DNA from: Candidatus Eiseniibacteriota bacterium
GTDB taxonomy: Bacteria > Eisenbacteria > RBG-16-71-46 > CAIMUX01
DNA length: 64,000 bases
NCBI GenBank assembly: GCA_903844735.1
Contig: CAIMUX010000053.1
Span: 1-64,000, forward strand
Direction of reading: 5' to 3'
A program made the translations under genes and the position numbers. Below, one piece after another: positions 38,636-43,128 of the stretch. The first letter of the stretch is position 1. Each line of letters opens with the position of its first letter. The notes below the pieces were generated by a model. That model searched no databases and was not told where the DNA came from. It saw only the letters and a list, made by a program, of their open reading frames with translations.

Positions 38636-39485
38636 GAATCCGATCATCCTGATGGAGCGCGTCACGCGTGTGTACAAGTCCGGCTCGGTGGAGACACCGG
38701 CCCTGCGCGAGGTGAGTATCCGGCTCGCAGCCGGAGAGATGGCCGCCATCATCGGTCCGTCCGGTTCCGGCAAATCGACCCTCATGAACCTGATGGGTTG
38801 CCTCGATGTTCCCACCAGCGGACTCTATGAGTTCGACGGCCGCGAGGTGGGCAAGCTCTCCTCCGAGGAAATGGCCGAATTGCGCAACCGCTCCATCGGG
38901 TTCGTCTTCCAGTCGTTTCACCTCCTGCCCCACGCCACGGCCCGCGAGAACGTGGAGATGCCGCTCCTCTTCGGCGGGATGGCGGCCAAACCACGCCGTG
39001 AGCGGGCGATGGAGATGCTGGAGCGGGTCGGCCTCGCCCCGCGCGCCCATCACCTGCCGACGCAGCTCTCCGGCGGCGAAATGCAGCGCGTGGCGGTAGC
39101 CCGGGCCCTCGCCAACCGACCGCGGGTCATTCTCGCCGACGAGCCGACCGGCAACCTCGACAGCCGCAGCGGCCGCGGCATCATCGAGCTCTTCCGGGAG
39201 CTCTGGAAGGAAGGGGTGACCGTGGTCCTCATCACCCACGACCTCGGCCTGGCGCGGGTCTGTCCCCGGATCATGAAGATCCAGGACGGGCGTATCGTGC
39301 ATGACGGGGCGGATGTGCCGGTCGAGGATGAGACGGTGGAGGAGGCGATCCGCTCGGATCCGGTGGCGGTGACGTCGGTCGTGGACTCTGAGGCACGGCT
39401 CTCCGGTTGGACGAAAGTGCTGCGCTCGGTCCGCGGCGGCCGTGGGGTACGCGGGACGCGGGGGCTTGAGCCGGTGCGGGGATGA
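38628..39485 (+). CDS. ABC transporter ATPase (MacB/LolD type)
   Basis: 285 residues. Walker A is GPSGSGKSTL, then the Q-loop FVFQSFHLLPHATARENVEMPL, signature LSGGEMQRVAVARAL, Walker B VILADEPTGNLDSRSG and switch His LITHDLG. It has a C-terminal extension of about 65 residues (from VEDETVEEAIRSDPVAV to RGLEPVRG) beyond the usual end. The extension is duplicated as a fragment at 41385-41585. Its ATG overlaps the upstream stop (ATGAGTGA). It powers the MacAB-like pump. Confidence 0.94.
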   Translation: MSENPIILMERVTRVYKSGSVETPALREVSIRLAAGEMAAIIGPSGSGKSTLMNLMGCLDVPTSGLYEFDGREVGKLSSEEMAELRNRSIGFVFQSFHLLPHATARENVEMPLLFGGMAAKPRRERAMEMLERVGLAPRAHHLPTQLSGGEMQRVAVARALANRPRVILADEPTGNLDSRSGRGIIELFRELWKEGVTVVLITHDLGLARVCPRIMKIQDGRIVHDGADVPVEDETVEEAIRSDPVAVTSVVDSEARLSGWTKVLRSVRGGRGVRGTRGLEPVRG

Positions 39486-39554
39486 CGGGGCGACCAGGGC
39501 CCAGTGGCATGGCGGCATGGGCGAGCGCCCGGCTCGCATGACTGTGGGCGGGAC

Positions 39555-39609
39555 TCAGAGCCTGAGCGTGTACAACACCGTCTGCTGCACACTGCGGAGG
39601 CTCACCTTA
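39555..39609 (-). pseudogene. Copy of the last codons of the GNAT gene
   Basis: The minus strand reads VSLRSVQQTVLYTLRL then TGA, nearly the same as the end of the intact GNAT protein at 43600 (VGFRAVQQTVLYTRTL). It has no upstream homology. It is one of several GNAT fragments in 39.5-43.0 kb. Confidence 0.65.
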
Positions 39610-39658
39610 TGCTCGCTCCGAGCCCCCAGACACGGCGTTGGCGATGTAGCAAGTCGAC

Positions 39659-40414
39659 CTAGAACCCAAGTCCGGCCGAAAGCACGAGGGTGCCGTTTTT
39701 CATGTCCGCGCCCTGGGACGAACCGTCGACGGACGAGAGCCCCCAGGTATACCTGCCTTCGAGGGACATCCTGCTGCTGCCGGCGGGGATCTGCAGGCCG
39801 GCCCCCACGACAGCGCCGACTTCGAGGCGATTGATGTCGGCCCAGAGGTCCTCTTCCGTGCTCACACGCAGGCTTGGGTCCGGCACAAATGGGGTCGTCG
39901 TCTCGGTCGTGAGCTTACCCCCGAGATTGAAGGCTAGAGCTGGGCCGCCGATTAGATACGGGTTGACGGAACTCCCCGCATGGGGCGTGATGCGGAGCAG
40001 GAGCGGGCTCTCAATGTAGTTGATCCTTCTGGTGGCGGTCCAACCGCTCGCCTGATACCTGACGTTGCCCGTGGTACTATTGAGGTCGATTTCGACCGCA
40101 TCGGAGCCGGAATACTTCGCACCCTTCGTGACGTACCAGAGCTCCGACTCCAAGCCGGCCTTGGGGTTGAAGGCGTAGAAGAGGTAGGCGGCGGCGGCAA
40201 AGCCGGTCCGCTTCGCCGGAGAAGCCGTGGAAGCCCCGTTGTTGTAACTTCCCTGCCACGGCACCGGCAACCTCGCATCGTCTCCTCTCAGGGTCGAGAG
40301 ATCTATCCCCAGCCTGAACCCTTTCTCGACGTGCCCCGTGGTTTTGCCGAATGCCACTGCCGCCAGACAAGAGAGCAAGACCGCGACGACAACCAAGACC
40401 GAATGCAACTTCAT
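39659..40414 (-). CDS. Outer-membrane beta-barrel protein, paralogue A
   Basis: 251 residues: a signal peptide (LHSVLVVVAVLLSCLAAVAFG), then a barrel of the OmpA/OMP_b-brl type with alternating hydrophobic strands (FRLGIDLSTLRGD, AAAAYLFYAFNPKAGLESEL, YVTKGAKYSG, YIESPLLLRI, LEVGAVVGAGLQIPAG, SLEGRYTWGLSSVD) ending in LVLSAGLGF, with a C-terminal aromatic Phe as in most barrels. The function is unknown. GGAGG lies in the same place as in paralogue B. Tandem copy of 40446-41147. Confidence 0.85.
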   Translation of the reverse strand: MKLHSVLVVVAVLLSCLAAVAFGKTTGHVEKGFRLGIDLSTLRGDDARLPVPWQGSYNNGASTASPAKRTGFAAAAYLFYAFNPKAGLESELWYVTKGAKYSGSDAVEIDLNSTTGNVRYQASGWTATRRINYIESPLLLRITPHAGSSVNPYLIGGPALAFNLGGKLTTETTTPFVPDPSLRVSTEEDLWADINRLEVGAVVGAGLQIPAGSSRMSLEGRYTWGLSSVDGSSQGADMKNGTLVLSAGLGF

Positions 40415-40445
40415 GATCGTGATCCTCCTGTCCGACTCGATGCCC

Positions 40446-41598: not shown

Positions 41599-41652
41599 TT
41601 AGAGCGCCAGCGTGTGCACGACCGTCTGCTGCACATCGCGGAAGCCCACTCA
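41599..41652 (-). pseudogene. Second copy of the last codons of the GNAT gene
   Basis: The minus strand reads VGFRDVQQTVVHTLAL then TAA, again like the end of the intact GNAT protein. As at 39555, it follows an ABC ATPase tail, so an ATPase-tail plus GNAT-tail segment seems to have been duplicated as a unit. Confidence 0.7.
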
Positions 41653-41983
41653 GGGCAGCGAGAGAAGCGTCGCTGGGAGAAGGGAGCACAGAGCCCGGCG
41701 CGGAAAGGAGGTTTGAGCTTCTCCCGCTCGACCGACCCGGTCACGATGCATGCGGATCGATCGGCGCTCTGGGCTGGCTCCACCGGGACGTTGGGACACG
41801 GCGAGTTGGAAGACTGACCTAGCGAGGTGGATGGCGAATATGGCATTCTTCGCCGTGGACTCCCTCTGGTCTCAGGGACCGCAATGCGCCCTGGCCCGAT
41901 GATGCCGTACGAGCCGCGGGCGGAGTCCGTGTCATCATTCGCGGTTACTCGGAGTCGGTCGAAGAGCGTTCGGGAGCGACGAA

Positions 41984-42950
41984 GTGCCATACAGGCGCCT
42001 GAACATCATCAGCAACAACGTCGGGTTCGGCCTGTCGCGGGACATCGGCTTGGTGCGGTCGATGCTCGAGCCCTGCGGATGGCAGGTCGACACGCATGGC
42101 TTCCAGTCGCCGCCGATCGCCGAGCGCACCCGACGGGCCTTGCGGCGCATCGTCGGCCGGCGGCCGGCCTATGACGTCAATCTCTTCATCGAGCTCGTGA
42201 TCCCGATGTGGTTTCGGCACGCGCGCGCCAACATCCTCATCCCGAATCAGGAGTGGTTCCAGGAACGTGCCAAGCGCCACCTGAAGCGATTCGATCTCGT
42301 GCTCTGCAAGACCCGCCACGGAGAGGCGATCTTTCAGGCGCTGGGGTGCCGGACGTCGTTTGCTAGCTTCACTTCGGCGCGACCGTCGCGCCGCGGTTCC
42401 TGTGCGCGAACGCCGCGGCCTCCTTCATCTCGCCGGCCGCAGCCGCCAGAAGGGAACTGCGGCCATCGTCGCCCTCTGGGCGGCGCATCCGGAGTGGCCC
42501 ACGCTGACCATCGTCCAGCACCCCGAGCGCGCAACCGTGATTGACCTGCCGAACGTGCGATGGATCGTCAACTACATCGCCGACGACGACCTGACCGACC
42601 TGCAGAACCGACACGGCATCCATCTCCAGCCATCCGAGGTCGAGGGTTTTGGCCACACTATCGGGGAGGGGATGAGTTGCGGCGCCGTGGTCGTGACGAC
42701 CGACGCGCCGCCAATGAACGAGCTCGTCACACCTGAACGCGGACTGCTCGCCGCCTGGCGCGAGTCGGAGCCGATGCGGCTCGGCACGGCGTATCGTGTC
42801 GACCCGGCCGACCTCGCGCGCCGCGTCATCGAGGCGCTGGGCCTTGATGACACGGCGCACGACCGCCTTGGCGCCGCAGCCCGCGCGTGGTACGAGAACA
42901 ACGATCGCTTCTTCCGTCGTCGGCTCCCGGAGGTGCTCAATGACTTCTGA
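41984..42950 (+). pseudogene. Glycosyltransferase-like protein split by a frameshift
   Basis: GTG 41984 (GGGAG 8 nt upstream) starts RLNIISNNVGFGLSRDIGLV, then NILIPNQEWFQERAKRHL and LVLCKTRHGEAIFQALGC. Near 42366-42385 the homology jumps frame and continues as RRGLLHLAGRSRQKGTAAIV, then WIVNYIADDDLTDLQNRHGIHLQP-type sequence, SEVEGFGHTIGEGMSCGAVV and TTDAPPMNELV, ending at 42950. Together this is about 320 residues of a GT-B, GT4-like glycosyltransferase with the E-G-F-G-H donor motif. One base restores the frame, so it is either a recently broken gene or a consensus error. Confidence 0.78.
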
Positions 42951-42956
42951 CCTCCC

Positions 42957-43006
42957 CGAGGTCGGCCGCACGGAATGCCCGCATCGAGTCGCCGAGCAGC
43001 ACCGGC
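42957..43006 (-). pseudogene. Short fragment of the GNAT gene
   Basis: The minus strand reads VLLGDSMRAFRAADLG, like ALLCDSMRAFRAAGLE of the intact GNAT protein. It is a third region of that gene found as a fragment, just after the broken glycosyltransferase. Confidence 0.6.
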
Positions 43007-43128
43007 CCCACGGGGTTGGTGCCGCAACGCATGACCGGTTACGGCTGTTTGCGCGTCAGAATTTCCCAAACTTCAGCGTGATGCCCGTAAGGGTAGAAAC
43101 CGTCATCAGTGTTGTCCCGGGCTTCGGC

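Follow-up and report, generated by a model that had tools for sequence, protein, structure and literature searches.

A probable decaying tandem array, with unrelated genes inside its eroded copies, between an ABC ATPase gene and a GNAT gene

Five pieces of two neighbouring genes lie between an intact ABC ATPase gene (38628..39485, + strand) and an intact GNAT gene (43600..45306, − strand) in the window, the whole 64,000-nucleotide stretch of DNA analysed here. One is a copy of the ABC ATPase tail and four are GNAT pieces, and in a self-comparison all five keep the strand and order of their parents. We interpret the region as a tandem array in decay, in which at least two tandem duplications over the ABC–GNAT junction were followed by insertions, deletions and the decay of spare copies, and we give this reading a probability of about two in three. 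It is favoured because the pieces stand in parental orientation and order above the background, because their pairwise divergence is broadly similar, and because a neighbouring glycosyltransferase gene and an orphan gene are broken and an IS110-family copy is dead.

The ABC ATPase (LolD/MacB-type; Pfam PF00005) is the last gene of a HlyD–permease–permease–ATPase operon (35030-39485) and has a C-terminal extension past approximately residue 235. Its tail recurs at 41391..41585 on the + strand, covering residues 227-285 with the stop codon; the gapped alignment of 39306-39483 with 41391-41583 is 75% identical (137 bits, E 5e-33), giving a copy of around 178–195 bp. A leftward extension of this copy past 41391 is weak and overlaps a GNAT piece, and is not claimed. 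The GNAT gene encodes a 568-aa protein with two GNAT domains (PF13302 and PF00583). We refer to it as GNAT-C and to the two fragmented copies, both on the − strand, as GNAT-A and GNAT-B. GNAT-A begins at 39525..39644 with the GNAT 3′ end, which includes its stop codon, and some of the adjoining 3′ flank; this piece encodes KVSLRSVQQTVLYTLRL followed by a stop. The core match (43598-43651 versus 39553-39606; 81%, 53.6 bits) can be extended to 39525-39644 versus 43570-43679 and so reaches into the flank (39525-39552), as segmental duplication predicts, although the flank part alone is weak. A second piece of GNAT-A, at 41318..41357 (parent 44575-44616; 83%, 42.8 bits), corresponds to the end of GNAT domain 1. 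GNAT-B consists of the 3′ end at 41599..41650 (41601-41649 versus the 43598-43651 region; 80%, 44.6 bits), which encodes VGFRDVQQTVVHTLAL and a stop and has a stop codon directly upstream of the homology, and of a piece from inside GNAT domain 2 at 42957..43004 (parent 43713-43760), which encodes LLGDSMRAFRAADL and in which 42957-42999 matches 43713-43755 at 88% over 43 bp (56.3 bits). The GNAT pieces are thus short, at 40–54 bp, with one of up to 120 bp if its weaker flanks are included. We set aside a tblastn match to GNAT residues 486-568 that extended as far as 39791, since the outer portion of this match runs into a beta-barrel gene.

From left to right, the order is the ABC ATPase, GNAT-A with two beta-barrel genes inside it, the ABC tail, GNAT-B with an IS110 left end and a glycosyltransferase gene inside it, a pseudogene and GNAT-C. 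Each GNAT copy is encountered 3′ end first and is collinear with the intact gene. The repeats score significantly and follow their parents in orientation and order, as tandem segmental duplication with decay requires. A preliminary description had placed an ABC tail followed by an inverted GNAT tail at both 39.3-39.6 and 41.4-41.65 kb, further GNAT pieces at 41.3 and 42.96 kb, and an intact GNAT gene at 43.6-45.3 kb. The alignments bear this out, with its coordinates correct to within around 50 bases. Between the last piece of GNAT-B and GNAT-C (43005-43597), neither an ABC tail nor further GNAT pieces were detected.

The same description had predicted off-diagonal matches in a self-comparison of 38.5-45.5 kb, and these were found at 42.8–137 bits. 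By comparison, 200 dinucleotide-preserving shuffles of 39486-43597 yielded best scores of 36.5 bits for GNAT and 31.9 bits for ABC, and 43 real slices from elsewhere in the window reached 32.8 and 31.0 bits, respectively. Across the 5.4-Mb genome, the best other match to the GNAT gene, among the matches listed, scored 37.4 bits. The 42.8-bit GNAT piece is absent among the genome-search matches listed and rests on the self-comparison and on the shuffle and slice controls. Together, the shuffles, the real window slices and the whole-genome background rule out chance similarity of G+C-rich coding sequence. A scan of genome contigs returned, for GNAT, distant relatives only. GNAT-C itself fuses two different GNAT domain types (Acetyltransf_3 and Acetyltransf_1) in one protein, and its matches in the other genomes compared are distant and mostly cover one half only.

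The DNA between the pieces contains unrelated genes. Two beta-barrel genes lie in tandem on the − strand, at 39659..40414 (251 aa; PF13568, E 1e-15) and 40446..41147 (PF13568, E 8e-12; the start is the Met that matches gene 1, and the gene may instead start further upstream, at 41231). Both reading frames are open and intact, PF13568 is an outer-membrane family, and the genes are paralogues, as first described, with 72% DNA and 58–63% protein identity. Their best identity in the related genomes searched is around 35%, with no close relative. The glycosyltransferase pseudogene (41984..42950, + strand) carries one frameshift near 42360-42390, where its two ORFs (41984-42544 and 42360-42950, the second with PF00534) lie in different frames. 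No close relative was found among 12 related genomes, in which matches of 27–44% identity cover parts of the gene. An orphan secreted-protein pseudogene follows at 43060..43529 (− strand; recognised by three-frame reading), with a signal-peptide-like start that gives way to stops and a frame change, and without a Pfam match.

A decayed IS110-family left end with the start of a transposase gene lies on the − strand at 41751..41942. It matches a full-length IS110 element (L090; 362-aa transposase, PF02371 and PF01548) in G004, which belongs to the same order, at 74% (E 9e-31; tblastn E 2e-15), with both the transposase homology and the shared left terminus present. The copy is dead: its start codon is changed, it contains an internal stop, and the Asp of the IDLAK motif has become His. 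Because only around 190 bp of the left end is left, with no complete transposase and no right end, we regard it as a remnant and not as an element. The segment 41772-41938 is found again at four further sites of this genome (G000; C4:3130-3351, C60:1-121, C49:5192-5312 and C136:755-835). All five remnants retain the left end from or near the same terminus; the left end has an inverted repeat of around 11 bp (TGGACTCCTCC..GGAGGAGTCCA), and none of the five retains the transposase interior or the right end. Either the assembly or the element itself may be responsible for this left-end bias. Directly beside the remnant on contig C136, at approximately 930-1330 (L065), is an array of direct repeats of around 47 bp (GTAAACTCGCAAGCCAGTGTCAAGGCCTGAACGTGG...).

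Divergence among the copies spans 16–26%, with 21% for the ABC tails, 22–26% for the GNAT 3′ ends and 16% for the GNAT internal piece. The ABC tail copy has 65.6% protein identity with its parent, one in-frame 15-nt insertion and no stop within it; the 37 differences in 60 codons fall 10/8/19 on the three codon positions, a third-position excess (19/37, P 0.018 against one third). Given this excess and the lack of stops, the ABC tail copy may have gone on coding for a while, within a functional gene, or may derive from such a gene. The differences between the GNAT pairs (5/4/3, 4/3/6 and 7/4/3; just 12–14 per pair) are spread evenly over codon positions, as those of unconstrained copies would be.

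These patterns also bear on an alternative that we consider unlikely, namely that the cargo was recombined in from a diverged relative that already had it bordered by an ABC tail and a GNAT gene, the repeated ends being borders that travelled with it. Divergence of 16–26% in all copies would be expected equally of old duplicates and of orthologues in a different lineage; with its third-position excess and in-frame indel, the ABC tail copy retains the look of coding sequence; and none of the related genomes searched contains a close relative of the cargo. However, this scenario requires several imports with identical flanks, and the GNAT pieces have no codon-position bias. Nor was a donor locus found. 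Among 47 genomes of the class, a close orthologue of the operon permease, at the set threshold, occurs in only one other genome (G003), which lacks both the tail and a GNAT neighbour: its ATPase orthologue, with 69–70% identity over residues 2-236, stops close to that point and lacks the tail extension, and an unrelated gene lies downstream of the operon. Two other genomes of the family have no close copy of the operon.

The assembly is split into 142 contigs, its contamination is estimated at 4.99%, and one IS110 remnant (C60:1-121) sits at a contig end, all of which would be consistent with several strains having been joined in one contig. We judge such a misassembly to be very improbable, because the copies are only 75–88% identical and are truncated inside genes, unlike collapsed or doubled repeats, and the 108-kb contig that carries the locus has continuous G+C. 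There is a similarly slim chance that the ABC–GNAT junction is an insertion hotspot where the ends of both convergent genes are copied whenever cargo arrives, the fragments being footprints of an unrecognised insertion process that duplicates ends, possibly linked to IS110-type left ends. Least credible is retention of the GNAT 3′ end by selection because it serves downstream of each ABC tail as an RNA element, for example a bidirectional terminator: the intact 3′ end contains an 8-bp inverted repeat (GTACAGCA-CCGTC-TGCTGTAC), of which two degenerate copies lie 15–70 nt behind an ABC stop codon, but folding was no better than in shuffles for five of six strands (z −0.9 to +0.8; −2.3 for the remaining strand), Rfam gave no match, and the internal GNAT pieces would be left unexplained.

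Under tandem duplication with decay, the ancestral arrangement would have been a convergent junction of the ABC ATPase and GNAT genes. A first duplication, with its ends in the ABC tail and GNAT domain 1, would have produced the order ABC, GNAT-A, ABC tail 2, GNAT-B, and the GNAT domain-1 piece would adjoin the ABC tail at the new joint, 41358-41390. GNAT-B and the intact GNAT-C would stem from a second duplication, which would have included the 3′ part of GNAT at minimum. Because no ABC tail is detectable before GNAT-C, this second event would have used another unit or its ABC tail would have been lost. Unequal exchange or replication slippage may have generated the duplications, with or without a contribution from IS110. 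The redundant GNAT copies would have been free to decay and accept DNA: the beta-barrel pair would have taken the place of around 0.9 kb of GNAT-A, and around 1.3 kb with the IS110 remnant and the glycosyltransferase gene would have replaced approximately 60 bp in GNAT-B, whereas the intact ABC and GNAT-C genes presumably retain their functions. The tail-less interval at 43005-43597, the shortness of the GNAT pieces and the differing operon of G003 count against this history.

The preliminary description had read the region as serial duplication and deletion of one block, frozen mid-decay. Block duplication fits what we observe, in that the copies are collinear, on the same strand, 16–26% diverged and truncated, with pseudogenes nearby. 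Deletion accounts for the gaps only in part, because the unrelated genes and the IS110 left end show that insertion matters equally; the IS110 remnant and the two pseudogenes had no place in that account. The image of frozen decay suits the fragments, the glycosyltransferase gene and the orphan gene, but not the two beta-barrel reading frames, which look intact.

A second tail-only gene copy in the window suggests that events of this kind are not rare in the genome. The copy, at 13319-13732 within a 179-aa ORF, derives from the 3′ end of a formylglycine-enzyme-like gene at 11300-12742 (− strand), and 11249-11716 is 86% identical to 13265-13732. Near or between this gene and its tail copy are two small ORFs (12602-12841 and 12861-13199), which may resemble a DUF433/DUF5615 toxin–antitoxin pair. 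Elsewhere in the window, a short direct repeat of approximately 60 bp (87% identical) occupies 33125-33244.

The ABC–GNAT locus requires no new mechanism. It adds an ordinary example, with an unusually clear layout, to the known cases of bacterial genes being duplicated, interrupted by insertions and left to decay; a literature search by general terms returned nothing on the locus in the titles and abstracts listed. It offers a readable case of bacterial gene gain, in which spare copies from tandem duplication host unrelated genes and then erode, and it warns annotators that a gene 3′ end beside cargo may be a scar instead of a functional element. Among known systems, integrative islands that recreate a gene's 3′ end likewise have gene 3′ ends repeated at cargo borders; here, however, the repeated tail is around 180 bp, internal gene pieces are repeated too, and no integrase was recognised when the larger ORFs of 39.5-43.6 kb were scanned against Pfam. 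The left end and transposase start at 41751-41942 resemble IS110-family remnants, and another genome from this order carries a complete copy; here, however, there is only a dead left end, with at most a conjectural part in the rearrangements. Tandem segmental duplication with pseudogenisation is matched by the collinear, same-strand, truncated copies beside intact parents and by the broken neighbouring genes; what sets this locus apart is that cargo genes lie inside the decayed copies.
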